Origin: Streptomyces sp. CG1
GTDB lineage: Bacteria > Actinomycetota > Actinomycetes > Streptomycetales > Streptomycetaceae
Direction of reading: 5' to 3'
NCBI RefSeq assembly: GCF_041080625.1
Contig: NZ_CP163518.1
Location: 9,355,501 to 9,419,500 of the forward strand
DNA: 64,000 nt
Numbering within the stretch: the stretch's first letter is position 1; each line of letters begins with the position of its first letter. The notes under the pieces were generated by a model. The model was not told where the DNA came from. It did no database searches and saw only the letters and a program-made list of their open reading frames with translations. This document shows positions 26,088-53,534 of this stretch, piece by piece. The position numbers and the translations under genes are program-made.

Positions 26088-27899
26088 GTGGAATCAGGGG
26101 AACGCACACTCACCGAGCTGTTCGAAGATGTCGTCGCACGCTTCCCGGACCGGGTGGCGGTGACGGCCGAAGACCGGGAACTCACCTATCGGGAACTCGA
26201 TCACCGGGCGGCAGCGGTCGCCCGGCGGCTGCGGGAGGCGGGTGCGGGGACCGGCTCCCCGGTCGCCCTGCTCGTCCCGCGCACCAGCAGACTGGTGGTC
26301 GGTCTGCTCGGCATCCTCAAGTCCGGTGCCGCCTACGTCCCTGTGGACCCCGGCTATCCGCGGGAGCGAATCGCCTGGACCCTCAAGGACAGCGGCGCCA
26401 CCCACCTCGTCACCACTTCCGAACTCGCCGGGCCACTGGGCGACTTGGGTGTCGACGTCGTCGTCCTCGACGAGTCGGCCGCCGCGTCGGAGCCGCCGGT
26501 CAAGGCCGGCCCGGGCGATCTGGCCTATGTGATCTACACGTCCGGGTCGACCGGCGTGCCCAAGGGCGTCGAGGTGGAACACCGCCATGTGGCCCGGCTG
26601 TTCGACGTCACCCGGGACTGGTACGGCTTCGACGAGCACGACGTCTGGTCGCTGTTCCACTCCGTGGCCTTCGACTTCTCCGTGTGGGAGCTCTGGGGCG
26701 CGTTGCTGTTCGGCGGGCGGCTCGTGGTCGTGTCGCAGGAGTCCGCCCGGTCCCCGGAGTCCTTCCACGCACTGCTGCGGGAGCAGCGGGTGACGGTCCT
26801 CAACCAGACGCCGTCGGCGTTCGTGCGGCTGGCCGCCGTGGACGAGGCGGCCCGGCATCCGCTGACCGCCCTGCGCGTCGTGGTGTTCGGCGGGGAGCGG
26901 CTGGAACCCGCCGCTCTGCGTGGCTGGTTCGACCGCCACGGTGGCGAACGGCCGCGTCTGGTCAACATGTACGGCATCACCGAGGCGACCGTGCATGCCT
27001 CGTACCGGCCGGTCACCGCGGACGACATCGCCGCATCCGGTGTCAGTCCGATCGGTGTGCCGCTGCCGGACCTCGGCTTCCATGTGATGGACGAGCACGG
27101 CCGCCCGGTGGCCGACGGTGCCACCGGCGAGCTGTATCTGTCCGGGGCGGGGCTGGCCCGCGGCTATCTGGGCCGCCCGGAGCTGAACAAGGAACGGTTC
27201 GTCGAAGTCCCCGGCCCGGACGGCACGGTGCTGCGCTGCTACCGCACCGGCGACCGCGTGAGGGCACTGGCCGACGGCGGCTACGGCTATCTCGGCCGCG
27301 CCGACGACCAGATGAAGATCCGCGGCTACCGGATCGAGCCCGGCGAGATCGAGGCCGTCCTCGTGGAGCACGCGGAGGTGTCGGCGGCCGTGGCGGTCGC
27401 CCATGACTACGGCGCCGGGGATCTGCGCATCGTCGCCCATGTCGCCTCCGGCACCCCCGCGGACGTCCTCGCGCCCCGGCTCGGCGAGCGGGCCGCGGCC
27501 GTCCTGCCGCCGCACATGCGCCCTTCGGCGTACATCGTCCTGCCCGAACTGCCGCTCACGCTCAACGGCAAGGTCGACAAGGCCCGGCTGTCCGAGCCGA
27601 CCGCCGAGGCGGCACTCGCACCGGTCGCCGTCGCCCCGGACACGGCCTGTGAACTCACCGGCAGCGAGCGGCGGATCGCTCTGATCTGGCAGTCCGTCCT
27701 GGAGCTGCCCGAGGTCGGCCGGGACACCGACTTCTTCGACCTCGGCGGTACCTCACTCTCCCTGCTGCGCATGTTCGGCCAGGTCAACGAGGAGTTCGGC
27801 ACGGACCTGGACATCACGGTGCTGATCGAGGGGGCGACGGTCGAGGCCCTGGCCCGCCATGTCGACGCGGCGCTGTCCGGCACGGCCCCGACGGCCTGA
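26088..27899 (+). CDS. NRPS adenylation-thiolation didomain, threonine-activating (SyrB1-like)
   Basis: The 603-residue enzyme is a free-standing A-T didomain with no condensation domain. Core A3 reads YTSGSTGVPKG (near residue 149) and A5 NMYGITEATVH. A7/A8 read YRTGDRVRALADGGYGYLGR and RGYRIEPGEIE, and A10 is LPLTLNGKVDKARL. Reading the specificity pocket gives DFWNVGMVHK, the canonical code for threonine. The carrier domain has DFFDLGGTSLSLLRM with the phosphopantetheine Ser near residue 553. It would load L-Thr onto its own carrier for the halogenase encoded next. The GTG at 26088 has a modest AGGA ribosome site. Confidence 0.95.
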   Translation: MESGERTLTELFEDVVARFPDRVAVTAEDRELTYRELDHRAAAVARRLREAGAGTGSPVALLVPRTSRLVVGLLGILKSGAAYVPVDPGYPRERIAWTLKDSGATHLVTTSELAGPLGDLGVDVVVLDESAAASEPPVKAGPGDLAYVIYTSGSTGVPKGVEVEHRHVARLFDVTRDWYGFDEHDVWSLFHSVAFDFSVWELWGALLFGGRLVVVSQESARSPESFHALLREQRVTVLNQTPSAFVRLAAVDEAARHPLTALRVVVFGGERLEPAALRGWFDRHGGERPRLVNMYGITEATVHASYRPVTADDIAASGVSPIGVPLPDLGFHVMDEHGRPVADGATGELYLSGAGLARGYLGRPELNKERFVEVPGPDGTVLRCYRTGDRVRALADGGYGYLGRADDQMKIRGYRIEPGEIEAVLVEHAEVSAAVAVAHDYGAGDLRIVAHVASGTPADVLAPRLGERAAAVLPPHMRPSAYIVLPELPLTLNGKVDKARLSEPTAEAALAPVAVAPDTACELTGSERRIALIWQSVLELPEVGRDTDFFDLGGTSLSLLRMFGQVNEEFGTDLDITVLIEGATVEALARHVDAALSGTAPTA

Positions 27900-27947
27900 G
27901 GCGCGGGCGCACCGGCCTGCCGTACCACTTCCACCACGAAGGGACGC

Positions 27948-28901
27948 ATGAGCGCAATGCCCGATTTCACGCTGAGCCCCGAGGACCTCGCCGCCTTCCA
28001 CCGCAACGGCTACGCGGGTCCGTTCACGCTGTACGAGCCGGACGAGATCAAGAAGACCTGGGGTCGTACCCGGCTGGAGCTGCTGGATCGCAGCGCGGCG
28101 GCCTACAGCGACGACGCGGCGGTGTCCGCGGCGACGAACATCTCCAACTACGACCGTCATCTCGACCACGCCTTCCTGGCCGAGCACATCACACGCCCGG
28201 AGATCGTGCACCGCGTCGCCTCGGTGCTCGGCCCCGATGTGCTGTGCTGGCGCACGGAGTTCTTCCCGAAGCACCCGGGCGACGAGGGGACCGACTGGCA
28301 CCAGGCGGACACCTTCGCCAACGCGTCGGGCACCCCGCAGATCCAGTGGCCGGGCGGCTCGGACTTCGGCGGGACGATCACGGTGTGGTGCGCGTTCACC
28401 GAGGCGAGCGCCGAGATGGGCTGTCTGCAGTTCATCCCGGGCACCCATCGCACGATGTTCTACGACGAGACGAAGCGGATGCACTACTCGCCGGACCAGA
28501 ACACGAGCGTGGAGAAGGACGGCGTGCGCCGCGGATTCTTCGGCTACGACTACCGCGAGCTGCAGATCGACCCGGGCTGGAAGCCGGACGAGTCCCAGGC
28601 CGTCTCGATGGAGATGCGGGCGGGCCAGTTCATCATGTTCTGGTCCACCCTGATGCACGCCTCGCATCCGCACCAGGGCCTCACCCGGGACATGCGGATG
28701 GGGTTCGCCGCTCGCTACGTGCCCACGTCCGTGGAGATCTACCCCGGCACCGACGAGATCGAGGAGTACGGCGGCCGGGTCAGCCTGGACCGGTACGGCG
28801 CGGTCCTGGTCAGCGGCGCCGACAAGTACGGCCACAACCGCATGGCCACCCGCACCACCCGCGACCATCCCTTCGTGACCCAGTCGCCGGCGGGGGACTG
28901 A
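27948..28901 (+). CDS. Fe(II)/2-oxoglutarate-dependent chlorinase of aminoacyl-carrier threonine (SyrB2 type)
   Basis: The 317-residue protein matches SyrB2 nearly end to end. Shared stretches include [59 protein letters not shown] and FWSTLMHAS. The iron-binding facial triad reads WHQAD, His-x-Ala instead of His-x-Asp, near residues 118-120. This Ala leaves room for chloride and distinguishes halogenases from hydroxylases. The distal His is in LMHASHPH and the 2-oxoglutarate Arg in RMGFAARY. It should chlorinate C4 of Thr tethered to the A-T didomain. The ATG at 27948 follows GAAGGGA. It overlaps the next gene (TGATG). Confidence 0.95.
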
Positions 28902-30091
28902 TGCCGGCGCCGTCCGCGGCGGGCGGCAGGCCCGGTGACGGCTCGCCGGCCGCGCTCGCCCACGCCCTGGTGGACACCGCGTCGATCACCCGCGCCGTAC
29001 CGGACCGCATGCGGGTGGCGCCCGCCGAACCGCTCCCCGCCGGGACCCTGCGCGCGGCCCAGGAGGTGCTCGACCAGGTGACCCTCGCCCTCGGCCTGCC
29101 CGAAGTCGAGGTGGTGGGCGGGCCGGACGGGCTGACCGCGGTGGAACTCGCGGTCAGCCGGCGGCTGGCGCTGCGCGCACCCGGTGCCGTCGCCGACGGG
29201 GAGCCGGAGCAGGCGGCGCGGTCGGCGCTCGCCGCCTTTCCCGGGCCGGCCGTGCTGGTGCCCGCGCGGGACGGTACGCCGCTCAGGTGCTGGGTCGCCG
29301 GCCCCGAGGACGCGCCGGCCGTCGCCGTCGTCAGCGCCTGCGGCATGCCCGTGGGGCTGGTGGCGCGCTGGCTGGGTGCCCTGGCCGCGGAGTACCGGGT
29401 CGTGACCTGGGAGAGCCGTGGCCTGTTCGCCGCAGCCGACGGAGGGGGCCTCGGCGACCTGGCCGACCACACGCTGGACGCCCAGAGCGAGGACGTGCTG
29501 GCCGTCCTCGACGGGTTCCGTATCACCGAGGCCCATGCGCTGGGTCTGTGCGGGGGAGCGGTCGTCGCGCTCGCGGCGGCCGCCCGCTCGGACCGGATCA
29601 CCTCCCTGAGCCTGTGGCACGGCGACTACGAACTCGGCGGCGAGGCACCCAAGACGGCTCACCAGCGGGATGTGGAGTCCCTGCTGACCATGGTCTCCCG
29701 GGGGCCCGCCCAGGCGGCCGCCATGCACCGGCTGATGAGCCGGCCCAGCACACTGGAGGCCCTGCGCCCGGACATCGCCCATTACCTCATCCACCCCTAC
29801 GCCACACCCGAACTCCTCCACCGTTACGGGCTGTTGAACGGGGCGATCATGTCGGCCGACTGCCGTGGGCTGCTCGACGCCCCGCAACCGGCCCTGGTCG
29901 TCACCAGCGACCGCGACACCACGGCCCACCCCGCCGGCTCGAAGTTCGTCGCCGCGCGCCTGCCACGGGCCGAACTGCGCACGATGCCCGACGGCGACCA
30001 CCTCACCGCCTTCGGCGGAGGCGATGAACTGGTCACGCTCGCCCGGGAGTTCCTGCACTCCGTGACGGTCCCCGAACGGAAGGGCACATGA
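28901..30091 (+). CDS. SyrC-like alpha/beta-hydrolase-fold aminoacyltransferase
   Basis: The 396-residue protein has an N-terminal extension of about 125 residues and a C-terminal alpha/beta-hydrolase domain. Its nucleophile elbow reads GLCGG, with Cys at residue 217 where most hydrolases have Ser. SyrC, which moves chlorothreonine from SyrB1 to the SyrE synthetase, also uses a Cys nucleophile in this fold. An Asp in VVTSDRD and the His in MPDGDHLTAFGG complete a triad. Its position right after the halogenase gene with a TGATG overlap supports transfer of 4-chlorothreonine to another carrier, most simply the FkbM-fused carrier encoded next. Confidence 0.85.
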   Translation: MPAPSAAGGRPGDGSPAALAHALVDTASITRAVPDRMRVAPAEPLPAGTLRAAQEVLDQVTLALGLPEVEVVGGPDGLTAVELAVSRRLALRAPGAVADGEPEQAARSALAAFPGPAVLVPARDGTPLRCWVAGPEDAPAVAVVSACGMPVGLVARWLGALAAEYRVVTWESRGLFAAADGGGLGDLADHTLDAQSEDVLAVLDGFRITEAHALGLCGGAVVALAAAARSDRITSLSLWHGDYELGGEAPKTAHQRDVESLLTMVSRGPAQAAAMHRLMSRPSTLEALRPDIAHYLIHPYATPELLHRYGLLNGAIMSADCRGLLDAPQPALVVTSDRDTTAHPAGSKFVAARLPRAELRTMPDGDHLTAFGGGDELVTLAREFLHSVTVPERKGT

Positions 30092-31491
30092 ACGAGATCG
30101 CCGACAGCGCCCGGCACAAGCAGCTGGCCGAGATGCTCAGGGAACACCCCGCGGTGGCCGACGCGCTGGTCACCGGCGACCGCGAGGGCGACGGGCACGC
30201 CCGGATCGTGCCCGACCCCGTCGCGGCCGCCGTGCTGCACCGTTCCGTCGCCCTGGAGGCGGCCGGCCGGCTCGGCGCCGCCCTCGGCTGGCACGAGCCC
30301 GCGGGACAGCTACGGGTGGCCGGACTCAACCGCAGCGAGACGGAGTTCCTCCACCGCGAGATCTTCGCCGACAACGCCTACTTCCGGCACGGCATCACCC
30401 TGCCCGCCGGCGCCGTCGTGCTGGACGTCGGGGCGAACATCGGCATGTTCACGCTCTGCGCGGCCCGGCGCAGTCCGGGCGCCCGGATCATCGCCGTCGA
30501 GCCGGTCGCCGAGCTGGCCGACGCGGTCGCCGTCAACGCGGAGCTGCACCAGGTGGACGCCACGGTCCTGCGCACCGCGCTGGGCCGCGCCGAAGGCCTG
30601 GCGGGGTTCACCTTCTACCCCCACAACAGCGTCATGTCGGGCCGGTTCGCCGACACCGCCGAGGACCTGGAGGTGCTCAAGGGCTATCTGCTCACCGGGG
30701 AGAACGCCCAGCAGGGCGAGCACCTGGACCGCCTCGCGGCCGGCCGGATGACCACGCAGACCCGCCAGGTGCCGGTGACCACGCTCACCGCCGTCGTCCA
30801 CGAGCACGGCCTCGCCCGCATCGACCTGCTGAAGATCGACGTGGAGAAGGCCGAGGCCGAGGTCCTGGACGGCATCGACGACGAGCTGTGGCCGCGCATC
30901 GACCGGATCGTGATGGAGGTCCACGACGTCGACGGACGCCTCGCCGCCGTCCTCGCCGAACTGCGGGGCCGCGGCTTCGACGTCACCCACGAACAGGACG
31001 CCCGGCTCGTCCTGACCCCCTGTCACACCATCTACGCCCGGCGCCCCCGGGCCGACACCACACCCACCACCCTCACCACACCCGTCGGGGGCCTGACCCT
31101 GCGCCGGCTGGAGGAGGAACTGCGCGACCTGGTCGCCCGGCGCCTGCCCTCGGTGCCGGGACCCGGCCGCTACACCCTCACCGCCGATCTCACCACCCAC
31201 ACCGACGACCACGGGCCGGCACGGGAGCGCGGCGTCCCCGCCTCCCCGCGGGTCGCCGTGCTCGCCCGGATCTGGGCGGAGCTGTTCGGCCCGGAGGCGG
31301 TACGGCCCGACGCGGACTTCTTCGACCTCGGCGGCGACTCCCTGACCGCCGTACGCCTGATGGCGACCCTGGAGCGCGAACTCGGTGAGGACGCCCTCAC
31401 CCCCGATCTGATCTTCACCGACAGCACCTTCGGCGCGCTCGCCGCCGCCGTCGAGGCGAGCGGGGACCCCGAAAGGACAGCGCGTACATGA
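30088..31491 (+). CDS. FkbM-family methyltransferase fused to a C-terminal peptidyl carrier domain
   Basis: The 467-residue protein has three parts. A short N-terminal segment (about 1-70) resembles the tail of an adenylation domain. An FkbM SAM-methyltransferase domain follows (about 95-330) with VVLDVGANIGMFTLCAAR as motif I and LLKIDVEKAEAEVLDG as the family signature. A carrier domain (about 385-460) holds DFFDLGGDSLTAVRL, with the phosphopantetheine Ser at residue 418. The carrier could accept the chlorothreonyl unit from the SyrC-like protein and present it for O-methylation in cis. This fusion is not part of the syringomycin pathway. It overlaps both neighbours by ATGA. Confidence 0.88.
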   Translation: MNEIADSARHKQLAEMLREHPAVADALVTGDREGDGHARIVPDPVAAAVLHRSVALEAAGRLGAALGWHEPAGQLRVAGLNRSETEFLHREIFADNAYFRHGITLPAGAVVLDVGANIGMFTLCAARRSPGARIIAVEPVAELADAVAVNAELHQVDATVLRTALGRAEGLAGFTFYPHNSVMSGRFADTAEDLEVLKGYLLTGENAQQGEHLDRLAAGRMTTQTRQVPVTTLTAVVHEHGLARIDLLKIDVEKAEAEVLDGIDDELWPRIDRIVMEVHDVDGRLAAVLAELRGRGFDVTHEQDARLVLTPCHTIYARRPRADTTPTTLTTPVGGLTLRRLEEELRDLVARRLPSVPGPGRYTLTADLTTHTDDHGPARERGVPASPRVAVLARIWAELFGPEAVRPDADFFDLGGDSLTAVRLMATLERELGEDALTPDLIFTDSTFGALAAAVEASGDPERTART

Positions 31492-32738
31492 GCTCCACGC
31501 ACCACCTGCTGCGACGGGCGGCGCCCCCGTCGGCCGTCGCGGCGGGACTGATCGCCGTCGTGGTGGGCATCACCAGCTCGGCGGCGATCGTCTTCACCGC
31601 CGCCCGGGCCGCGGGCGCCACCCAGGCCCAGCTCACCTCCTGGATGCTGGCGCTGGGCGTCGGCATGGGCGTGACCTGCATCGGGCTGTCGCTGCGCTAC
31701 CGGGCGCCGGTGGTGACCGCGTGGTCGACGCCGGGCGCGGCCCTGATGGCGACCAGCCTGCACGGAGCGACCATGGCGCAGGCCGTGGGCGCCTTCCTGC
31801 TCTCCGCGGCCCTCATCACCGTATGCGGGGTGACGGGCTGGTTCGAGCGCGGCATGGACCGCATCCCCGTACCCCTGGCGGCCGGGCTGCTCGCCGGAGT
31901 CCTCCTGGAGTTCGGAACCCGGCTGTTCAGCAGCATGCACGGCAATTTCGCGGTGGTCTTCCCGATGTTCGTGGTCTACCTGCTGTCCCGCCGCTGGCTG
32001 CCCCGTTACGCCGTCATCGCGGCGCTGGTCACCGGAGTCGTCGCCGCGGCGGCCGAAGGCTCGCTGCGACTGGGCGGGGTGCGGTTCCAGGTCGCCTCAC
32101 CCGTCTTCACCGCCCCGGACTTCTCCTGGCGGGTGCTGATCAGCGTGGGCCTGCCCCTGTTCGTGGTCACCATGGCCTCGCAGAACCTGCCCGGCGTGGC
32201 GGTGCTCCGCAACGACGGTTACCACGTCCCGGTGTCACCGCTCATCAGCTGGACCGGCGGTGTCAATCTGCTGCTCGCGCCCCTCGGTCTGTTCGGCCTC
32301 AACCTCGCCGCCATCACCGCCGCCATCTGCACCGGCCGCGAGGCCCACGAGAACCCCCGCCGGCGCTACACGGCAGCGGTCTGGGCCGGCATCTTCTACC
32401 TCTGCGTCGGCATCTTCGGCGGAGCCGTCGGCTCCCTGCTCACCACCCTGCCCCCGGCCTTGGTCACGGGCATCGCCGGGCTGGGTCTGCTGGGCACCAT
32501 CGGCGCCTCGCTCAGCAGCGCGCTGTCCGACGAGCGATGGCGCGAGGCGGCCGTCGTCACCTTCCTCACCACCGCCTCCGGCGTGACCCTGCTCGGCATC
32601 GGCTCCGCCTTCTGGGGCCTGCTCGCCGGCCTGTGCACCGCCTTCGTGACCCACACCCGCCACCGCCCCGCCCCACCGACCCCGCCCACCCCGGCCCGCA
32701 CCGAGCCCCAACAGCCGCCCGACAGGAGCCGGATATGA
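31488..32738 (+). CDS. BenE-family (benzoate/H+ symporter-like) membrane transporter
   Basis: The 416-residue protein has about eleven or twelve hydrophobic helices and matches the BenE family, with segments such as AGLIAVVVGITSSAAIVFTA, WSTPGAALMAT and FVVTMASQNLPGVAVLRNDGY. BenE proteins are proton-coupled symporters of the nucleobase-transporter fold. Inside this cluster it could export the amino-acid product or import a precursor. The Pro/Thr-rich C-terminal tail (last 30 residues) is cytoplasmic. It overlaps the genes on both sides by ATGA. Confidence 0.88.
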   Translation: MSSTHHLLRRAAPPSAVAAGLIAVVVGITSSAAIVFTAARAAGATQAQLTSWMLALGVGMGVTCIGLSLRYRAPVVTAWSTPGAALMATSLHGATMAQAVGAFLLSAALITVCGVTGWFERGMDRIPVPLAAGLLAGVLLEFGTRLFSSMHGNFAVVFPMFVVYLLSRRWLPRYAVIAALVTGVVAAAAEGSLRLGGVRFQVASPVFTAPDFSWRVLISVGLPLFVVTMASQNLPGVAVLRNDGYHVPVSPLISWTGGVNLLLAPLGLFGLNLAAITAAICTGREAHENPRRRYTAAVWAGIFYLCVGIFGGAVGSLLTTLPPALVTGIAGLGLLGTIGASLSSALSDERWREAAVVTFLTTASGVTLLGIGSAFWGLLAGLCTAFVTHTRHRPAPPTPPTPARTEPQQPPDRSRI

Positions 32739-33526
32739 CAGGGACGGCCGGGACCCGCGTCGCGGAGTCCGGACGCTGGTTCCACCGTCCGCTGCCCAGG
32801 CCCGAAGCCCGCCTGAGACTGGTCTGCGCCCCCTACGCCGGAGCCGGGGCGGGCGTGTTCCGGCCGTGGGCCGAGCGGCTCCCCGCCGACACCGAGCTGG
32901 TCGCCGTACGGCTGCCAGGGCGCGAGAACCGGCTGCGGGAGCGGGTCCCGCCCAACTGGCTGTCACTGGCCCGGGACTTCGCCGCCGCGCTGGAAGAGCA
33001 CGTCGCCTCTCCCTACCTGCTGTTCGGGCACAGCATGGGCGCGATGCTGGTCTACGAGACCGTCGTACGGCCCCTCGCCCGGCCGCCCGAACGGGCCCTG
33101 CTGTCCGGCTGCCGGGCACCGCATGTGCCGCGCGCCCTGCCCGCCATCCACGACCTGCCGCCGGAGGGGTTCCGCGCGGAACTCGGCAGACTCGCCGGCA
33201 CACCCGCCAGTGTCCTCGCCGACCCCCGTCTGATGGCCATGCTCGACCCGATGCTCCGCGCGGACATCCGGCTCGCCGAGACCTGGTCCCGCCCGGCACC
33301 GGATCCGCTGCCTGTGCCGGTCACCGCGTTCTGGGGCGAGGACGACGACGTCGCCCCACCCGACGCGGTGGCCGCCTGGCAGACCCTCGCGCCGCACGGA
33401 TTCCGTGCCCACCCCCTCGCCGGCGGCCACTTCTTCCTGCACGAACGGGCTCGGGACCTGCTCGGGCTGCTCGACGACGAGATCACGCTGTGCCTGGCGG
33501 AGCGACGAAGGAGCGACGGATCGTGA
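32735..33526 (+). CDS. Type II thioesterase
   Basis: The 263-residue alpha/beta hydrolase has LVCAPYAGAGAGVFRPWAE at the N-terminus, the nucleophile motif FGHSMGA (Ser at residue 100), an Asp in WGEDDDVAPP, and the His in LAGGHFFLHE. These are the standard features of type II (GrsT/RifR-like) thioesterases. They remove stalled or wrong acyl groups from carrier domains. It may instead release the finished product, since the cluster has no other thioesterase and no terminal NRPS module. It overlaps its neighbours by ATGA and GTGA. Confidence 0.92.
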   Translation: MTGTAGTRVAESGRWFHRPLPRPEARLRLVCAPYAGAGAGVFRPWAERLPADTELVAVRLPGRENRLRERVPPNWLSLARDFAAALEEHVASPYLLFGHSMGAMLVYETVVRPLARPPERALLSGCRAPHVPRALPAIHDLPPEGFRAELGRLAGTPASVLADPRLMAMLDPMLRADIRLAETWSRPAPDPLPVPVTAFWGEDDDVAPPDAVAAWQTLAPHGFRAHPLAGGHFFLHERARDLLGLLDDEITLCLAERRRSDGS

Positions 33527-34713
33527 GGTCACCCTATTTCGACGACGGCCACGCCGCCTTCCGCGAGGAGGTGCGCGCCTTCCTGGCCGCCGAGGTGATG
33601 CCGTACGCCGCCCGCTGGGAGGAACAGGACACCGTCCCCGCCCCGGTGTGGAAACTCCTCGGCGAACACGGCTACTTGGGCCTGCTGTACCCGCGTGCCG
33701 TCGGCGGCGGCGAACGCGACCTGTTCACCTCCGTCGTCTTCCTGGAGGAACTCGGCCGCACCGGGTTCGGCGGGCTGCGGGCGGCGGTCTCCGTCCATGC
33801 CTACATGGCCACGCACTACCTCTCCTGGGTCGGCGGGCCCGACCTGTGTCGCGAGTACCTCGCGCCTGCCGTGCGGGGCGAGCGGGTGGCCGCCCTCGCG
33901 ATCACCGAACCGGGCGCCGGAGCCGACCTGTCGGGTCTGGCCACCACGGCCGTCCGGGACGGCGACCACTTCGTCGTCGAGGGCACCAAGTCGATGGTCA
34001 GCAACGCCATGACCGCCGACTTCCTCGTCACCGCGGTGCGTACGGCCCCCGGCGGGGCCGGACCCCGCGGCGCGACCGGGCTGTCCCTGCTGGTGATCGA
34101 CACCTCGCTGCCCGGCGTCACTCGCACCCCGCAGCGCACCCTCGGCTGGCGCTCCGCCGGCACCGCCACCGTCACCTTCGACGCGGTGCGGGTTCCCGCC
34201 GGCCGGCTCATCGGCCGGCTCGACAACGGCTTCTACTACCTCATGCGCGGACTGCAGCTGGAACGACTGGTCGCCGCCACCCTGGCCCTCGGCGGCATGG
34301 ACCGCTCCCTGGACGAACTGCGCGCCTTCCTGCGCGCACGCGAGGTCGCCGGCGAGGAACTCGCCCACAAGCAGGCGCTCGTGCACCGCGTCGCCGACCT
34401 GGCGACCGAACTGGCGGCCGCACGGCAGCTCGTGCACCACACCGCGTGGCTGTACGAGCAGGGCGAACTGCCCGCCGTGGAGTGCTCGATGGCCAAACTG
34501 CACACCACCGAGCTGGCCTGCCGGCTCGCCGACACCGCACTGCAGCTGCAGGGTTCGCACGGCTACCTGGAGACCTCCTGCGCGGCCCGCGCCCAGCGGG
34601 ACGCCCGCGCCGCCACCATCGCCGCGGGGCCCAGCGAGGTGATGCGCGACCTCATCGGCCGGGCGGTGCTCAACCGCCCCGCCGACCGGAGCCCGTCCGC
34701 GAGGGGGAACTGA
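33523..34713 (+). CDS. Acyl-CoA dehydrogenase family flavoprotein
   Basis: The 396-residue protein has all three acyl-CoA dehydrogenase domains. AITEPGAGADLSGLATTAV is the FAD-binding signature near residue 125, and QLQGSHGYLE lies in the C-terminal domain. GPSEVMRDLIGRA contains the Glu that often serves as catalytic base. In an NRPS-type cluster such enzymes usually desaturate a carrier-bound acyl or aminoacyl group. Here it could introduce a double bond into the tethered chlorothreonine derivative. That is inference from context. The GTG at 33523 overlaps the thioesterase stop and has a GAAGGAG ribosome site. Confidence 0.9.
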   Translation: MRSPYFDDGHAAFREEVRAFLAAEVMPYAARWEEQDTVPAPVWKLLGEHGYLGLLYPRAVGGGERDLFTSVVFLEELGRTGFGGLRAAVSVHAYMATHYLSWVGGPDLCREYLAPAVRGERVAALAITEPGAGADLSGLATTAVRDGDHFVVEGTKSMVSNAMTADFLVTAVRTAPGGAGPRGATGLSLLVIDTSLPGVTRTPQRTLGWRSAGTATVTFDAVRVPAGRLIGRLDNGFYYLMRGLQLERLVAATLALGGMDRSLDELRAFLRAREVAGEELAHKQALVHRVADLATELAAARQLVHHTAWLYEQGELPAVECSMAKLHTTELACRLADTALQLQGSHGYLETSCAARAQRDARAATIAAGPSEVMRDLIGRAVLNRPADRSPSARGN

Positions 34714-36044
34714 TGGGCAATCAGACGGTGTACTTCTTCCTGGCGTTGGCCCTCGTGCTGGGGGTGGCGCGGCTGTGCGCCGCGGGCTCCCGCCGGCTGG
34801 GGCAGCCGGCCGTGGTCGGCGAGATCGTCGCCGGTGTGCTGCTCGGCTCGACCCTGCTTTCCTCGACCTGGAGCTGGCGGGACGCCGTCCCCTACGACGA
34901 GGTCCAGCCGCTCCTCGGGGCGCTGGCCAACGTCGGCCTGGCCCTGTTCATGTTCGTCATCGGCTACGAGATGGACCCGGCCTTCCTGCGCGGCAGCGGC
35001 CGTACCGCCCTGTGCGTGGCGACCGGGTCGGTGCTGCTGCCCCTGGTCGGCGGCTGCCTCGCGGCGCTGCCGTTCGCGGCGGACCACGCGCCCTCGGGCG
35101 CGCCGGGATTCGTGCTGTTCATCGGCGTCGCCCTGTCCGTCACCGCCTTCCCGGTCCTCGCGCGGATCCTCGCCGACCAACGGCTCAACCACACCTCCGT
35201 CGGCCGGATCGCCATGGCCGCCGCGGGCGTGAACGACCTGGTCGCCTGGGCCTGTCTCGCCGTCGTCGCCGCGCTGTTCACCAGCGCCCAGTCCTGGCAC
35301 ATGGCGTTCGTGCCCGTCTATCTGGCGCTGCTGATCCGGGTGGTGCGCCCGCTCGCCGCCCGGCTGCTGCGCGGGCGCGGGGCGGGGGCGCCGGACCCGG
35401 CGGCGGCCGTGGTCGTGGTGGCCGCCGGGCTCATGGCCTCCTGCGCGGCCACGGAATGGCTCGGCATCCACTTCGTCTTCGGGGCGTTCGCCTTCGGCGC
35501 GGTCATGCCCCGTGAGGGCGCCGGGGAGCGGCTGCGGGTCTCCGTGATGGACGGACTGGAGAAGTCGGCCACCCAGATCCTGCTCCCCGTCTACTTCGTG
35601 GTCGCGGGCACCCGTGTCGATCTCACCACGTTCCGCGCGGCACACCTCGGCGAGCTGGCGGTGATGCTGGCGGTCGCGGTCGTGACGAAGATGGCCGGTG
35701 CCGGCCTCGGTGCCGCCGCGGCCGGACTGCCCCGCCGGGAGGTGCGGACCGTCGCCGTGCTGATGAACACCCGGGGCCTCACCGAGATCGTCATCCTCAC
35801 CGTGGGACTCCAACTGCACTTCATCGACCAGGCGTTCTACTCGATCCTGGTGGTGATGGCTGTGCTGACCACCGTCATGACCGGACCGCTGCTCCTCGCC
35901 CGCCGCGCCACGGGGGAGGACGATGTGCCCGTGGAGCGCGGGGCGGACCGCGTTCCAGGGCCCGCGTTCGACGGCCGGGAGCAGACCCGCCCCCAGCATC
36001 AGCGGGAGGAGTCCCGCCCCGCGCATCAGGAAGAGCGGTCCTGA
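34713..36044 (+). CDS. Cation:proton antiporter (CPA2/KefB-like)
   Basis: The 443-residue membrane protein has about twelve or thirteen helices with CPA2 landmarks: GQPAVVGEIVAGVLLGSTLL, LFMFVIGYEMDP, ALSVTAFPVLARIL and NTRGLTEIVILTVG. The last 45 residues are hydrophilic and charged. It starts inside the stop of the dehydrogenase gene (TGATG), so it belongs to the same operon. It may confer resistance, drive export or balance chloride/proton flux in producing cells; none of these is shown by sequence alone. Confidence 0.9.
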   Translation: MGNQTVYFFLALALVLGVARLCAAGSRRLGQPAVVGEIVAGVLLGSTLLSSTWSWRDAVPYDEVQPLLGALANVGLALFMFVIGYEMDPAFLRGSGRTALCVATGSVLLPLVGGCLAALPFAADHAPSGAPGFVLFIGVALSVTAFPVLARILADQRLNHTSVGRIAMAAAGVNDLVAWACLAVVAALFTSAQSWHMAFVPVYLALLIRVVRPLAARLLRGRGAGAPDPAAAVVVVAAGLMASCAATEWLGIHFVFGAFAFGAVMPREGAGERLRVSVMDGLEKSATQILLPVYFVVAGTRVDLTTFRAAHLGELAVMLAVAVVTKMAGAGLGAAAAGLPRREVRTVAVLMNTRGLTEIVILTVGLQLHFIDQAFYSILVVMAVLTTVMTGPLLLARRATGEDDVPVERGADRVPGPAFDGREQTRPQHQREESRPAHQEERS

Positions 36045-36053
36045 CCCCCCGAC

Positions 36054-37751
36054 TCAGGCGGGCTGTACGGACTCGTCCCACACACTGGTGCGCAGCAGCC
36101 CCGCGCGGTGCAGCCGCTGCTCCAGCTCCAGTACCTCCTGCGCCGCCTGCCGCGGACACGGAGCCGCCACCCCGATCAGGCCCCAGCGCCCGGCCACCGA
36201 CGTGATCGCCCGCGCCAACCCCTCGTGCCCGGACCGCTCGACACTGTCCTCCAGCCGCTTCAGATCCGTCTCCGCCGTCGGCCGCACCACCTTCGTCGCC
36301 GCGTACACCCCCTGCCGCCTGCCGAGCGCCTCCCGCGCCTCGGTGAGGAACGCCCGGACGTACTCGGCGCCGTTCGAGGAGAGATTCAGATCCTGCATGG
36401 CGACCACCGGCCGCCGGCCGAAACGTCCACCCAGAAGAGCGATGGCGAAGTCCACACCGCCCTTGACGAACCCCAGATCGCGCCCCGCCCCCTGGAACGC
36501 ACCGTGCAGCCCCGCCATACCCTCCTGTACGGCACGGAACTGAGCCGGCGTGATGTCGAACCGGGCGCAGGTCTCCTCGTCCACGTACACGCTGCCCTCC
36601 CAGACGCTGCCCCGGGTGATCTGCACCGTTCCGCCCTCGGCGGGCTGTCCGGCCACCACATGGGCGGAGGGTGCCAGGATGAACTCGTAGCCGGGGACGC
36701 GGTGGCGCAGATAGTGGGTGTGCGCCTCCAGGACGTAGTCCTCGTCGGTCTCCATGGCCTGGCGGGCCAGCGCGTCGAGTACCGCGTCGTCGGCCAGCGG
36801 CACCGCCATGCGGATCCTGCTGCCGGTGAGCGCCTCGGCGGGTTTGAAGCAGCCGAGTTCCAGCCCGTACCGCTCGCGCAGCAGCCGGGCCGCCGTGTGC
36901 ACCCGGTGGCGCAGCAGCGCCTCGTCGGCACCGGCCCGGGAGACCGAGTAGCCGGGCAGCCGAGGAAGCAGCACACCGAACTCCCGGTGGAACGCGGTCA
37001 CTTCGGCCTCCGCCGCCAAGGTGGTCTCCGGGGCGCAGTCCGCCCGCGGCGCGGGGACGCCCACCGCGTCCTCGACCGTCGGGTACAGCGTCGTCTTCCG
37101 GTTCCAGCGCTCGGCGACCTCCGGCCCGTTGGCGTCCACCCGCAGCTGCTCCAGGCCCGCCGCGCGCTTCAGCCAGAGCAGCAGCACGCGCGCCTCGGTG
37201 TCGATCGCGAACAGCCGCACCACCGTCTCGGGTGCCGCGCTCAGCTGCCGGACCAGGCGTTCCAGCGGTGCGGCCGGCCGGTCCGGAAGCGAGTCGACCG
37301 CCATCGCCAGCAGGGCGTGCGTCAGGTAGTAGTAGCGCAGCTCGGGGACCTCCACGGGAACCGCCTCGGACGCCGCCACCGCCTGCCGCCACGGCTCGCC
37401 CCGGCCCACGACCAGGTCGCCCGGCGCGGCCAGATACACCGCCCGTGCCTCGTTGTACGCCGAGAAGTCGTCCGGCGAGTGGCCGAGGGCCAGCTGGGCC
37501 ACATCGGCGTCGAAGCAGCCCTTCAGCGTGGACGCTGTGCCGAGGACGATGGCCGGCACCTGCCCGCGCGGTGCCCCGAACGGCAGCAGCTCCTTGCCGG
37601 CAGCCTCCTTCGCCCCGGCCAGATCCGTCCCGAGCAGACGCCGTGAGACCTGCTCCAGATCCTCGGCCGAGAGCAGATCGGGTCCGGTGACGAACCCTTC
37701 CCACGCCAGGGTCCTGCCACGGTGAACGACGGTCTGTTCCTGCTTCTGCAT
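36054..37751 (-). CDS. ATP-grasp-like ligase (predicted), convergent with the cluster
   Basis: The 565-residue protein is not a close match to any enzyme I can name. Its second half has ATP-grasp features. A Lys-containing nucleotide-binding strand reads ELGCFKPAEALTGSRI, and an adenine/phosphate region follows with YEFILAPSAHVVAGQ and ITRGSVWEGSVY. FVKGGVDFAIALLGG then leads to VVAMQDLNLSSNGAE, a metal-binding D-x-N motif. The first 250 residues would be a pre-ATP-grasp domain, as in PGM1-type peptide ligases. Ending 9 bp from the antiporter gene, it is plausibly part of the cluster and could join the chlorinated amino acid to a partner. The function is inferred. Confidence 0.6.
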   Translation of the reverse strand: MQKQEQTVVHRGRTLAWEGFVTGPDLLSAEDLEQVSRRLLGTDLAGAKEAAGKELLPFGAPRGQVPAIVLGTASTLKGCFDADVAQLALGHSPDDFSAYNEARAVYLAAPGDLVVGRGEPWRQAVAASEAVPVEVPELRYYYLTHALLAMAVDSLPDRPAAPLERLVRQLSAAPETVVRLFAIDTEARVLLLWLKRAAGLEQLRVDANGPEVAERWNRKTTLYPTVEDAVGVPAPRADCAPETTLAAEAEVTAFHREFGVLLPRLPGYSVSRAGADEALLRHRVHTAARLLRERYGLELGCFKPAEALTGSRIRMAVPLADDAVLDALARQAMETDEDYVLEAHTHYLRHRVPGYEFILAPSAHVVAGQPAEGGTVQITRGSVWEGSVYVDEETCARFDITPAQFRAVQEGMAGLHGAFQGAGRDLGFVKGGVDFAIALLGGRFGRRPVVAMQDLNLSSNGAEYVRAFLTEAREALGRRQGVYAATKVVRPTAETDLKRLEDSVERSGHEGLARAITSVAGRWGLIGVAAPCPRQAAQEVLELEQRLHRAGLLRTSVWDESVQPA

Positions 37752-47009: not shown

Positions 47010-48414
47010 GTGAGCAAGACGTACGCGGGGGCGCGTCTGCGGCGGCTGCGCGAGGAACGGCGCCTGACCCAGGCCGGGTTGGCGCGTGTGCTCGGCATCT
47101 CGCCGAGCTATCTGAACCAGATGGAGCACGACTCCCGGCCGCTCGCCGTCCCCGTACTGCTGCGCCTGACCGAGGCGTTCGGCGTCGACCCGGGGTTCTT
47201 CTCCGAGCGCGACACGACCCGTCTGGTGGCGGACCTCCGGGGGGGCGCTGGCCGGGGAACTCGCCGAGGCCCGGGTCTCCGCCGCCGATCTGACGGAACT
47301 CGCCGCCCGGATGCCCGACGTGGCCCGGGTCCTGCTCGACCTCGGCCGGCGCAACCAACGGCTCGCCGAGCACCTCGGAGACGGCCGCGGCGCGGACCCG
47401 GAGCAGCCGCGCTCACCGCACGAGGAGGTCCGGGACTTCTACTACCGCCGGCAGAACTACCTCCACGACATCGACCTCGCGGCGGAGGAACTCGCTCTGG
47501 AGATCGGCATCCGGCCCGGCGAGGTGACACGGGCCCTGGCCGCCCGCCTCGCCGACCGACACGGCGTCCGGCTGACCGGTGAGACCGGCGACTACCTGCA
47601 CCACTACGACGAACCGACCCGCACGCTCCACCTCTCCACGTGTCTGCGCCCCGGACAGCGCGCGTTCCGCGTGTCGATCCAGCTCGCCCTGCTCGAACGC
47701 GCCGGCGAACTCGACGGCCAGGCCGCCGAGGACTTCGAGCCCGGCTCGCCCGCCCACCGCCTGGCCCGCATCGGCATCGCCAACTACTTCGCGGCCGCCC
47801 TGATCCTGCCGTACGGTGCTTTCCACGCGGCTGCCGAAGAAGTGCGTTATGACATCGAGCGCCTCATCGACCGTTACGGCCTCGGCTACGAGACCGTCTG
47901 CCACCGGCTGAGCACCCTCCAGCGCCCGCGGCTGCGGGGCGTGCCCTTCTCCTTCGTCCGCGTCGACCGGGCGGGCAACATGTCCGAGCGTCAGTCGGCG
48001 ACCGGCTTCCACTTCTCCCGGGCCGGCGGCACCTGCCCCCTCTGGAACATCTACGAGGCATTCGCCGCCCCCGGCCGTATCCACGTCCAGATCGCCGAAA
48101 CGCCCGACGGACAGCGGTACTTGTGGACGGCGCGGGCGGTCACCCGGCACCGCGGGGGCTGGGGCGAACCGGGCAAGACCTTCGCCATCGGCCTCGGCTG
48201 CGAGATCCGCCACGCCCACCGCCTCGTCTACTCCGACGGCCTCGACCTCACCACCGCCTCCGCCGCCACCCCCATCGGCATGGGCTGCCGTGTCTGCGAA
48301 CGCCTCGACTGCCCGCAACGCGCCGCCCCGCCCCTCGGCCACCCGCTCCGCAACGACCAGAACACCGGCACCTTCGTGCCGTATCCCGTGTCCGATGTGA
48401 CGGCCGGATTCTGA
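47010..48414 (+). pseudogene. XRE-IrrE (RamB/ScfR-type) regulator with a single-base frameshift
   Basis: The GTG at 47010 starts a helix-turn-helix domain, [20 protein letters not shown] and [20 protein letters not shown], in one frame up to LVADLRG. The rest, [20 protein letters not shown] through an IrrE-like region and the C-terminus PIGMGCRVCERLDCPQRA, continues in the +1 frame to a stop at 48414. The switch falls in a run of seven G at 47239-47245. Removing one G restores a continuous frame of 467 codons with normal family features. It is either a recent mutation, a sequencing error or an on/off homopolymer switch. If functional, it would control acyl-CoA/glyoxylate metabolism. Confidence 0.85.
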
Positions 48415-48552
48415 CCGCTGCCCGCCGGGTGCGACGGCTCCTTCGGGAATGACCCGACGGTGGGTGGGAAGAGTGCCGTACGGCGCACCGCGGGGGAGTG
48501 GTCGGCCGGGCCGGGGGACGTCGGGCGCGGCGGGTGGGGGGAGGAGCCGGAT

Positions 48553-50022
48553 ATGGGCGGGCAGCCCTTGTATCTCGAACCGGCGCTGGGACGGCGGCTG
48601 CGCTCCGTCCTGGAGTCGCCCGCGTGGTTGCACATGCTCACGGACGCCCTCGGGTCTCCGCTGCATGTCGTCATTCCCGATCAGGTCGTGGAAAACATCG
48701 ATGGTTTTCGGTCGACCTACGGCAGACATCATCTGTCCGGGCAGGTGTTCTTCGCCCACAAGGCCAACCGGTCCAGCGCCGTGCTGCGGCGGCTGGCCGC
48801 GACCGACGCGGGCGTCGACGTCGCGTCGCTGGGTGAGCTGCAGCGCGCGCTGGGCTCCGGCTTCGCACCCGACCGGATCATGGCCACGGGACCGAAGAAT
48901 CCGGAATTCCTGTGGCTGGCCGCCCGCAGCGCGGTCACCGTCGGCGTCGACGCCCCCAAGGAGCTGGAGCAACTCGCGGCGCTGGTGCGCACGTACAAGC
49001 TGCCGCGCGTCCGTGTCCTGCTGCGGCTGTCGGGGTTCGAGACCGCCGGCGTACGGGTGTTGAGCCGCCGCAGCCGTTTCGGCACGCCCGTGCGGGAGCT
49101 GGCCGCACTGCTGGACATGACCGAGCGGTACGGCGACGCGGTCGGCCTGACCGGGGTGGCGTACCACCTGGACACCACGAGCATCACCGAGAAGGTGACC
49201 GCGCTCGAAGGCTGTCTGCTGGCGCTGGAGGAGTGCCGGAGCCGGGGCCTGCGTCCGCGGGCGGTGGACGTCGGCGGCGGGTTCGGTGTCAACTACCTTG
49301 CCGACGGCGGGCAGTGGGAGCGGTACACGACCGAGCTCACCGGCGCGGTCCTGGGTACCCGACCGCCCCTGACCTGGGGCGGGCACGGCTACGGCCTGCG
49401 CAACGAGGGCGGCACGCTGCGCGGAACGCTCGGCCTCTACCCCGCGCACCGGACGGCGGCGGGGCCCGGCTACCTCGACGAGCTGCTCACCCACCCGGCC
49501 CCTTCCTTCGGCGGCCGCCCCCTGGCCGAACTCCTGCTGGAGCACCTGTACGACCTGTACGCCGAACCCGGTCGGGCCCTGCTCGACCAGTGCGGGACGA
49601 CCCTGGCGAAGGTACTGGAGGTGCGCACCCCGCAGGACGGCGGGCCGCTGCTGGTCCGGCTGGCGGCGAAGGCCGACGACGTGGCGCTGGAGGAACACGG
49701 GGTGCTCATGGACCCGATCGTCGTCCCCCGGAACGCCGCACCCTCCGTCACCCGTGCCCAACCGGTCGCGGTCCAGCTCTTCGGCAGTCTGTGCCTGGAG
49801 ACCGACCTGATCACGCGCCGGACGGTCTACCTGCCCGGCCGCCCCGAGCCGGGCGACCTGCTGGCCTTCCCCAACACCGCGGGCTACTGCATGGACTTCC
49901 ACGCCACTCGCGCCCAGGACCAGTCCGTCGCGCGCAAGGTCGCCGTCTGGCAGGAGAGCGGCTCGTGGCGGTGGTGCCTGGACGACGAGTACTGGCCGAT
50001 TTCCGTGGGGGGAGCCCAGTGA
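48553..50022 (+). CDS. Fold-type III PLP-dependent decarboxylase/racemase-like enzyme (Y4yA/SbnH-like)
   Basis: The 489-residue enzyme has the alanine-racemase/ornithine-decarboxylase TIM barrel. The PLP Lys is in GQVFFAHKANRSS near residue 75. A conserved HLDTTSITEK is near residue 200, and the phosphate-binding VDVGGGFGVNY near residue 240. The C-terminal domain has ILEPGR-like LYAEPGRALLDQCG and a CMDF-containing NTAGYCMDFHA near the end. This family decarboxylates diaminopimelate, ornithine or adducts such as the SbnH substrate. Context with SbnA-like and SbnB-like genes suggests an amino-acid-adduct substrate. The ATG at 48553 follows GGGAGGAG; the frame upstream is not conserved. Confidence 0.85.
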   Translation: MGGQPLYLEPALGRRLRSVLESPAWLHMLTDALGSPLHVVIPDQVVENIDGFRSTYGRHHLSGQVFFAHKANRSSAVLRRLAATDAGVDVASLGELQRALGSGFAPDRIMATGPKNPEFLWLAARSAVTVGVDAPKELEQLAALVRTYKLPRVRVLLRLSGFETAGVRVLSRRSRFGTPVRELAALLDMTERYGDAVGLTGVAYHLDTTSITEKVTALEGCLLALEECRSRGLRPRAVDVGGGFGVNYLADGGQWERYTTELTGAVLGTRPPLTWGGHGYGLRNEGGTLRGTLGLYPAHRTAAGPGYLDELLTHPAPSFGGRPLAELLLEHLYDLYAEPGRALLDQCGTTLAKVLEVRTPQDGGPLLVRLAAKADDVALEEHGVLMDPIVVPRNAAPSVTRAQPVAVQLFGSLCLETDLITRRTVYLPGRPEPGDLLAFPNTAGYCMDFHATRAQDQSVARKVAVWQESGSWRWCLDDEYWPISVGGAQ

Positions 50023-51341
50023 GGTACGACAGCATCACCGAAGCCATCGGCAACACACCGCTGGTGCGCATCGACCCGGATGTGCACGGTCTGTCGCACA
50101 TCGACCTGTACGCCAAGCTGGAACTGCTCAACCCGTTCGGGTCGGTGAAGGACCGTGCGGCCTGGAACATGGCACGCCCGCTTCTGGCCGCCGCGGCCGA
50201 GCGCGGCAGCCAGGTCGTCGAGCTGTCCAGCGGCAACACCGCCAAGGCCCTGGCCGTCCTCGCGGGCATGCACGGACTGACCTTCAAGAGCGTCACCAAC
50301 CGGATGCGGGTCCCGGAGATCAAGGACCTGCTGCTGTTGCTGGGCGCGGAGATCGAGGAGCTGCCGGGCCAGAGCGAGTGTCTCGACCCGACCGCCACCG
50401 ACGATCCGCTGACCCTCTTCCACCGCACCCTGTCCGAGCCCGGCACCGCCTATCTGCACACCGACCAGTACTTCAACCCGCGCAACACCGAGGCCCATCT
50501 CACCGGCACCGGCCCCGAGATCGTCAAGGACCTGGGCGGGCGGGCCCCGGACTGGTTCATCGCCTGTGTGGGGACGGCCGGTTCCTCGACGGGCGTCGCC
50601 CGGGTGCTGCGCGAACACGATCCCTCCGTACGGGTCGTCGGACTGGTGGCGGCCAAGTCCGACTTCGTCCCCGGCATCCGCACCATCGACGAGGCACACG
50701 AGGTGGGCCTGTTCGATCCCGGCACCTACGACTCGATCGAGACGGTCGGCTCCGACGAGGCGATCGAGGGCATGCTGACCCTCAACCGCCGGTGCGGCAT
50801 CCTGGCGGGGCCCACCGGAGGAGCCGCCTACTCCGGCGCCATCCGCCAACTACAGCCAATGGATGGAGAACTGACGGAACGCCAGTCCGTGGTCTTCATC
50901 GTCTGCGACCGCGTCGAAAGCTACCTGGGCTATGTGCGGGAACGGCGCCCCGATCTCTTCGGCCGCCCCCGCCGCGCGAACTCCCCCGCCGACCTGTCCG
51001 ACGCCGAGATCCGCCAGGCCCCGTGCGCCGATGTCACACAGGCGCGGGCATGGCTCGACAGCGGCCGGCCGCCCCTGGTCGTCGACCTGCGCAGCTCCTT
51101 CGCCTACGCCGCCCTGCACATCGACGGCTCGGTCAACATCGTCGACGAGCTGTTCGAGGAACTCCTCCGTGGCGGACTGCCGTTCAGCCGCAGCCGTCCC
51201 GTGCTGCTGGTCTGCCCGGTCGGCGAGAAGTCCGCGCGGTACGCGGCCCTGCTGACCCGCATGGGACATCCCGACGTGCGCAGTCTGACCGGCGGCATCA
51301 TCGCCTGGCGCGACGCGGGCGCACCCCTGGTGCGGGACTGA
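50019..51341 (+). CDS. Cysteine synthase-like PLP enzyme fused to a rhodanese domain (SbnA-like)
   Basis: The 440-residue protein has a fold-type II PLP domain (about 1-320): AIGNTPLVRI, then NPFGSVKDRAAWNM with the PLP Lys near residue 44, then ELSSGNTAKALAVLAG for the cofactor phosphate. GTAGSSTGVARVLRE and GILAGPTGGAAYSGA follow. A C-terminal rhodanese-like domain (about 335-440) has VVDLRSSFAYAALHIDGSVN and the active-site-loop LLVCPVGEKSARYA, where the Cys is present. The sulfurtransferase fusion suggests that it handles a persulfide or thiol, or makes a beta-substituted alanine. It overlaps the previous gene by GTGA. Confidence 0.85.
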   Translation: MRYDSITEAIGNTPLVRIDPDVHGLSHIDLYAKLELLNPFGSVKDRAAWNMARPLLAAAAERGSQVVELSSGNTAKALAVLAGMHGLTFKSVTNRMRVPEIKDLLLLLGAEIEELPGQSECLDPTATDDPLTLFHRTLSEPGTAYLHTDQYFNPRNTEAHLTGTGPEIVKDLGGRAPDWFIACVGTAGSSTGVARVLREHDPSVRVVGLVAAKSDFVPGIRTIDEAHEVGLFDPGTYDSIETVGSDEAIEGMLTLNRRCGILAGPTGGAAYSGAIRQLQPMDGELTERQSVVFIVCDRVESYLGYVRERRPDLFGRPRRANSPADLSDAEIRQAPCADVTQARAWLDSGRPPLVVDLRSSFAYAALHIDGSVNIVDELFEELLRGGLPFSRSRPVLLVCPVGEKSARYAALLTRMGHPDVRSLTGGIIAWRDAGAPLVRD

Positions 51342-51366
51342 CCCCCGACACGAAGCGGCGACGACC

Positions 51367-52584: not shown

Positions 52585-52679
52585 CAGGGCACCAGATCCC
52601 GTAATGGGAACCGTTTCCACCAGTAGGGTCCCGACTCGGAAGCAGCGGTGGATGCGAGACAGTGAGGTGGCACGACCCG

Positions 52680-53444: not shown

Positions 53445-53534
53445 TCTTCCGTGTAATACCCTGTCCATGTGTTGACGGGTTACGCGTGCGACCTGCTCGA
53501 CCGCGGACGACGAGATCACGACGGACGGAGTTCC

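Follow-up and report, generated by a model that had tools for sequence, protein, structure and literature searches.

Nine genes of Streptomyces sp. CG1 appear to encode a pathway in which threonine is chlorinated temporarily, capped with a methyl group and closed into a cyclopropane amino acid. They lie at positions 26088–37751 of a stretch of 64,000 nucleotides (hereafter the window; C1:9355501-9419500 of a source genome of 11.1 Mb in two contigs), where eight are packed head-to-tail on the + strand (26088–36044) and the ninth is convergent (36054–37751, – strand). In our best model, to which we give a probability of about one half, free-standing carriers hold the substrate through cryptic chlorination, methyl capping and α,γ-ring closure, and 1-amino-2-methoxycyclopropane-1-carboxylate is the predicted product that is released. 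The protein families, the motifs, the threonine code, the absence of a condensation (C) domain from the window, the clade of the flavoprotein and the origin of the methylating carrier are read from the sequence, and from these we infer the order of the steps, where methylation takes place, that the ring closes, that chlorine is lost, and that the product is released and ligated.

According to this model, an adenylation–carrier (A-T) didomain would load L-threonine on carrier 1, where a SyrB2-like halogenase (Hal) would chlorinate C4. A SyrC-like cysteine transferase would shift the 4-chlorothreonine to a second carrier, fused to an FkbM methyltransferase (FkbM-T), which would methylate its β-hydroxyl. 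Because the O-methyl group would block an epoxide route, the α-carbon would be left as the nucleophile for the C–Cl bond. A KtzA-type flavoprotein resembling acyl-CoA dehydrogenases (ACAD) would then remove the α proton, so that the carbanion displaces the γ-chloride to give a 1-amino-2-methoxycyclopropane-1-carboxyl thioester, from which a thioesterase (TE) would free the amino acid. It is the combination of a methyl cap with a KtzA-type ACAD that predicts this product. The BenE and CPA2 membrane proteins would handle transport, and the convergent gene product may couple the cyclopropane amino acid to another amino acid.

Genes proposed for chlorothreonine formation

A preliminary description of this DNA had recognized the logic of SyrB1/SyrB2/SyrC in the first three genes, and our searches bear this out. 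As in the syringomycin system, a Thr-type A-T didomain, a carrier-dependent halogenase and a Cys transferase follow one another in the same order; unlike that system, the window has no C domain, its second carrier is fused to FkbM, and genes for BenE, TE, ACAD and CPA2 come next. When one genome per species was scanned for the halogenase, 232 relatives were found, and our locus counts come from the best 80 of them. FkbM-T was found in 21 of the 80 halogenase loci (FkbM loci), always with A-T, Hal and a SyrC-like gene. The A-domain code of the window, DFWNVGMVHK, is one that we take to specify Thr. The pattern DFW[NS][VI]GMVHK was read in 21/21 FkbM loci (20 directly; that of L015 was pieced from two parts), and the A-T adjoining the halogenase in Pseudomonas loci, in the syringomycin-type position, had DFWSVGMVHK in 21/21.

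The halogenase scored 466 bits against TIGR01762 (chlorinating enzyme; cut-off 226), and its best solved relative was SyrB2 (PDB 2fct; 494 bits over residues 6–309), with which its HQA motif and distal His line up. Residues H118, A120, H237 and H240 were kept in 25/25 aligned halogenases. With HxA, no carboxylate and a distal His, the window enzyme is by sequence a SyrB2-type carrier-dependent Fe/α-ketoglutarate halogenase, and the Thr-type code of the adjoining A domain leads us to propose carrier-bound Thr as its substrate. It is the sole enzyme of this type in the genome (second match, E 3.9e-4). The transferase scored 22.0 against the Pfam α/β-hydrolase model, below the cut-off of 25.8, and was 31–36% identical (tblastn) to transferases beside Pseudomonas halogenases. 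Its Cys217 and His367 were each present in 22/22 aligned homologues, and the Asp picked by motif was not conserved (D in 4/22). In sequence, it is thus a SyrC/CmaE-like protein, α/β-hydrolase-like with a Cys nucleophile and a His. The second carrier explains the presence of a transferase; a related locus, L028, has neither FkbM nor transferase.

The FkbM-fused carrier as a remnant of an adenylation module

The preliminary description placed FkbM and a carrier in one protein, and hence two carriers in the cluster, which we confirmed. However, its view of this protein (P0004) as a plain fusion is ruled out by flanking AMP-binding_C remnants and by relatives within modules of nonribosomal peptide synthetases (NRPS). 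The remnants are best seen in two homologues: residues 15–51 of P0090, before FkbM, match AMP-binding_C model positions 4–42, and residues 315–364 of P0143, after FkbM, match positions 23–70. P0004 itself gave a weak match at 15–35 alone (E 0.0016, below cut-off). No AMP-binding core was found in P0004 with Pfam, and it is without the A8 and A10 (NGK) motifs, both of which are kept by the aligned copies that reach that region. Over its whole length, P0004 also aligns with A-FkbM-A_C-T modules inside NRPS frames.

These results indicate that FkbM-T is, on sequence grounds, the fossil of an interrupted adenylation module, of which scaffold remnants, the methyltransferase and the carrier are left. 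The interrupted layout (a8/a9, methyltransferase within AMP-binding_C, carrier next) is seen in the homologues and the full NRPS modules. Since the adenylation core, A8 and A10 are gone, FkbM-T is a remnant rather than a true interrupted-A-domain member. It resembles the KtzH-type interrupted A domain (a8/a9) in having the methyltransferase within the AMP-binding_C subdomain and then a carrier, and differs from it in the missing adenylation core, A8 and A10.

We searched 392 Streptomyces genomes with P0004. Seven carried a free-standing FkbM-T (E < 1e-150, own genome included), and 16 further matches (1e-50 to 1e-75) lay in open frames of 347–5,555 residues. Upstream A codes were sought in eight fetched loci out of these 16 and were readable in seven (frames of 1,235–5,555 residues; L111 was unreadable): five were DVWHxSLVD and two, from the near copies L113 and L114, were DFWNVGMVH, which we take to be Ser and Thr codes, respectively. 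Residues D113, G115, N117, G119 and E138, presumably the S-adenosylmethionine site, were invariant across the 73-sequence FkbM-T alignment (72 homologues used of 120 listed; 153 found), and the carrier Ser was kept in 20/21 aligned FkbM-T proteins. A review (PMC11355689) describes KtzH as having a methyltransferase inserted at a8/a9 of its A domain that O-methylates Ser. Because the NRPS relatives pair FkbM with Ser/Thr A domains, and given the KtzH precedent, FkbM-T should O-methylate the β-hydroxyl of carrier-bound Thr or chloro-Thr; the O-methylation suggested in the preliminary description thereby gains support.

The methyl cap would set this pathway apart from that of largimycin. There, an epoxide is the proposed fate of chloro-Thr whose hydroxyl is free, the chlorine being lost (PMC9396626). 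By that description, LrgS/LrgH/LrgY resemble the window genes in stand-alone Thr loading, chlorination, transfer and cryptic use of chlorine. However, in largimycin epoxide closure of the chlorohydrin is proposed and an NRPS/polyketide synthase takes up the unit, whereas FkbM should cap the oxygen in the window pathway.

A flavoprotein that groups with a KtzA-position enzyme

We compared the window ACAD with other ACADs in phylogenetic trees. In a 96-sequence tree, each sampled halogenase/ACAD locus was represented as 'halogenase-linked' by its best ACAD, and these formed one clade (34/34, support 1.0). The RedW group, the sampled ACADs of the CG1 genome and 25 next-best ACADs from Streptomyces all lay outside it; an unlinked L223 sequence entered this tree twice. 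Three earlier trees agree on the clade (the first ACAD tree was without the 47% copies of L128/L129, and one later tree was short of 19 rows). The 25 outside ACADs are at no halogenase place of the Streptomyces sample, which may not include all of their genomes; three of these genomes carry a halogenase, on another contig or ∼4 Mb away. Among 184 Streptomyces genomes, the top five ACAD matches (48–100% identity) were all at halogenase places, and from 41% identity down the matches were a common ACAD family unlinked to halogenases. Membership of the group of RedW, a prolyl-carrier dehydrogenase, was rejected for the window ACAD, which the trees place apart.

Within the clade, the window ACAD is 48.9% identical over 374 columns to the ACAD in the KtzA position of L203. 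In this locus, genes for Hal, T, A and ACAD share one strand and are followed on the opposite strand by an NRPS and a TE; two tryptophan halogenases are encoded less than 40 kb away. We take this layout to be the kutzneride plan. Clade-ACAD loci without FkbM had an A code that we take to be Ile-like in 12/13 cases: DAFFLGVTFK in L079, L125, L127, L128, L129, L151, L205, L207, L208, L209 and L210, and DAFFLGMTFK in L203 (in the thirteenth, L028, the code is truncated and could not be read). Of these 12 Ile-type loci, all but L128 showed a small free carrier (11/12), and no transferase was detected in any of them. The ACADs of L079 and L125 branch within the Thr-type group, although support for this is modest (0.64–0.93 across four trees).

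KtzA-type chemistry spends chlorine to form cyclopropanes. The grouping of the window ACAD with the KtzA-position enzyme therefore suggests that chlorine is probably spent in closing a cyclopropane, and we propose a non-redox α,γ-dehydrochlorinase. A review (PMC12615548) states that KtzD cryptically chlorinates thioester-bound Ile for a cyclopropyl ring, and the title of a paper cited there names a cyclopropane-forming flavoprotein. The window shares with kutzneride KtzA-KtzD (and with coronatine) an A domain, a carrier, a halogenase and an ACAD; it differs from KtzA-KtzD in that its A code is of the Thr rather than the Ile type, in having a transferase and two carriers as well as an O-methyltransferase, and in the lack of an adjoining NRPS.

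Distribution of the gene set

The gene set proved to be a recurrent family. The 21 FkbM loci contained ACAD in 19 cases, TE in 14, BenE in 6, the convergent gene in 6 and CPA2 in 4, besides a BesA-like ATP-grasp gene in 3 and a C domain in 4; several are cut by contig ends. Their hosts were Streptomyces, Actinomadura, Actinokineospora, a Pseudonocardiales metagenome-assembled genome (MAG), Streptosporangium and two Sorangium cellulosum strains. Among the 392 Streptomyces genomes, 41 had a halogenase match at 1e-40. All nine genes are present in Streptomyces sp. IMTB 2501 (95–97% identity). A one-off or chance cluster is ruled out by this full set together with the core in 21/80 halogenase loci.

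The same distribution bears on the view that the product is free 4-chlorothreonine and that the remaining genes serve transport or protection or are leftovers. The chlorinating module is indeed complete, but FkbM-T and ACAD stay with it (19/21) from Streptomyces to Sorangium, as leftovers would not, and we consider this view highly improbable.

Variants of the set were also observed. A carbamoyltransferase gene lies 5΄ of A-T in L033, L040 and L047, whose FkbM version is more distant (identified with Pfam in L040 and by homology in L033 and L047), and suggests a carbamoylated relative of the product. In the S. cellulosum loci (L017 and L023), the core is accompanied by genes for BenE, a cupin and a cysteine-synthase-like protein; its presence in a myxobacterium may point to transfer between phyla. 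A minimal version from a Pseudonocardiales MAG (L028:2-3618) consists of A-T, truncated where the contig begins, together with halogenase, TE and ACAD; it has neither the transferase nor FkbM-T.

Points against ring closure and release

Several observations weigh against the proposed route. The conserved base of the ACAD, Glu247, is intact in 33/33 clade members (in a tree that left out nine short fragments, four of them the FkbM-locus edges L103-L106, and the duplicate loci L001, L117, L119, L147, L169, L219 and L221), so that true dehydrogenation is possible; the Glu of 'GYLE', also considered as the base, was rejected as not conserved. The KtzA identity of the L203 ACAD rests on gene order and content, and what could be read of the kutzneride-type region yielded no FkbM methyltransferase (4,640 bases of L222 are N). 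The clade excludes weaker ACADs from halogenase-derived regions (the second copies of L128 and L129, and those of L131 and L223), so proximity to a halogenase is not enough to define it. Among the FkbM loci, no ACAD was seen in L012 (contig edge) and L040 (15.6 kb covered), the ACAD of L033 and L047 stands apart from the gene run (in L047 on the opposite strand), TE was not seen in 7/21, and C domains occur near L010, L013, L014 and L033.

The intact Glu, the ACAD family annotation, and the presence of TE with a conserved extra gene, maybe a ligase, would all suit a pathway that keeps the chlorine, in which the ACAD is a true α,β-dehydrogenase and the product a chlorinated, O-methylated dehydro-amino acid or dipeptide. 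However, in the trees the ACAD falls with the KtzA-position enzyme and is separate from the RedW group, and a free 2-enamine acid would be unstable. We therefore regard retention of chlorine as rather unlikely. The small product foreseen in the preliminary description may well be a free amino acid or dipeptide, but its retained chlorine and desaturation are, in view of the ACAD clade, not the likeliest outcome.

The C domains near 4/21 FkbM loci suggest that some strains probably build the unit into peptides. The unit of the window might likewise not be released, the transferase handing it in trans to an NRPS whose genes lie at a distant site of the genome. SyrC passes chlorothreonine in trans in syringomycin, and the CG1 genome does have other C domains. 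In largimycin, LrgY hands chlorothreonine to LrgI (PMC9396626). Against such a hand-over, no C domain was detected in 17/21 FkbM loci (four C-domain queries against the DNA around each locus, some loci being cut by contig ends), TE is in the same run, and the cluster already has a second carrier. A profile search of the genome with PF00668 gave 27 places, none of them in the window, in agreement with the preliminary description, which had noted no NRPS line and no condensation domain; the nearest is ∼147 kb outside the window and sub-cut-off, and the next is ∼1 Mb off. We consider transfer to a distant NRPS quite improbable.

Returning to cryptic chlorination followed by ring closure, our literature search, confined to open-licence papers and weak as evidence of absence, found no described cluster with this gene set, and 'methoxycyclopropane' was absent among the matches listed in the open-licence literature. 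It is possible, although doubtful, that the genes represent a previously undescribed pathway family, in which temporary chlorination and methyl capping convert Thr to 1-amino-2-methoxycyclopropane-1-carboxylic acid, a possible masked electrophile against pyridoxal phosphate (PLP) enzymes that would leave the cell either as such or within a dipeptide. This compound is a donor-acceptor cyclopropane amino acid and, if the model is true, a new amino acid warhead is predicted, O-methylation would act in protection and thereby direct which ring is formed, and an interrupted A domain would be seen decaying into a methylating carrier. The gene set would unite two established chemistries, chlorothreonine formation and cryptic-chlorine cyclopropanation, without an assembly line; it recurs from actinomycetes to a myxobacterium and is small enough for direct reconstitution.

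Thioesterase, antiporter and convergent gene

In TE, the Ser was kept in 13/13 aligned sequences. A CPA2 homologue (>300 aligned residues) lay ≤8 kb from the halogenase in 25/60 fetched regions (1.15 Mb; L118-L157 and L202-L221, not independent of one another), against an expected count of ∼0.8 (from 8 PF00999 places in the 11.1 Mb of this genome) and 1 among 50 other loci (187 kb) as a control. The link of SyrB2-type halogenases with a CPA2 antiporter thus looks real.

The convergent gene had been called ATP-grasp-like. The gene itself stands, but this label, which goes back to the UniRef name of one homologue (P0012) and to non-significant profile alignments, is unproven. Searches with the protein gave no match in Pfam, even with the threshold relaxed to E 1, or in NCBIfam at E 0.001, and its PDB matches were at chance level. 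With hhalign (alignment of 61 of 66 homologues found), it gave P values of 0.11 and 0.08 against BesA-like proteins, compared with 0.058 for an ACAD control and 0.25 for an FkbM control. We regard it as a candidate ligase, ATP-grasp-like by weak signs.

Of the 21 FkbM loci, six have the convergent gene, three have a BesA-like ATP-grasp gene and none has both; these small numbers would fit one ligase replacing the other. BesA-like genes were seen near halogenase/ACAD sets in L016, L018, L020 and L079 (families tested on L020; the others are homologues) and hint at an amino acid ligated to another. The L020 ligase matched PF24923 above cut-off and the BesA model NF042917 with E 8.9e-50; as its score of 170 bits is far under the 750-bit cut-off, we call it BesA-like, not BesA.

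Gene layout and neighboring genes

All nine genes lie where the preliminary description had placed them (Table 1), and Pfam/NCBIfam searches gave family names to eight of them, the exception being 36054–37751. From Hal through CPA2, every chosen start overlaps the preceding stop by 1 or 4 bases, as in one coupled operon. A promoter and terminator scan found nothing.

Table 1. The nine genes of the cluster, with positions in the window
Product and proposed role	Position	Strand	Evidence
A-T didomain, SyrB1-like, code DFWNVGMVHK; proposed loading of L-Thr onto carrier 1	26088..27899	+	TIGR01733, 433 bits
SyrB2-like Fe/α-ketoglutarate halogenase, HxA facial motif	27948..28901	+	TIGR01762
SyrC/CmaE-like acyltransferase, Cys217/His367; proposed carrier 1 to carrier 2 shuttle	28901..30091	+	Motif, alignment
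FkbM methyltransferase and carrier 2 between AMP-binding_C remnants; truncated interrupted A-T module	30088..31491	+	Pfam FkbM and PP-binding
BenE-family membrane protein; transport, optional part	31488..32738	+	Pfam/NCBIfam; 6/21 FkbM loci
Type II thioesterase (TE); proposed release or editing	32735..33526	+	Pfam; 14/21 FkbM loci
Acyl-CoA-dehydrogenase-like flavoprotein (ACAD), KtzA-type clade; proposed α,γ-dehydrochlorinase	33523..34713	+	Pfam, trees; 19/21 FkbM loci
CPA2 cation:proton antiporter, optional part	34713..36044	+	Na_H_Exchanger/CPA2 match; 4/21 FkbM loci
Conserved 565-aa protein, candidate ligase	36054..37751	–	No named family; 6/21 FkbM loci

A separate run at 47311–54455 encodes an ScfRs regulator, a PLP decarboxylase, a PALP-rhodanese protein, a class V aminotransferase and an ornithine cyclodeaminase-like protein, and may be another small amino-acid pathway.

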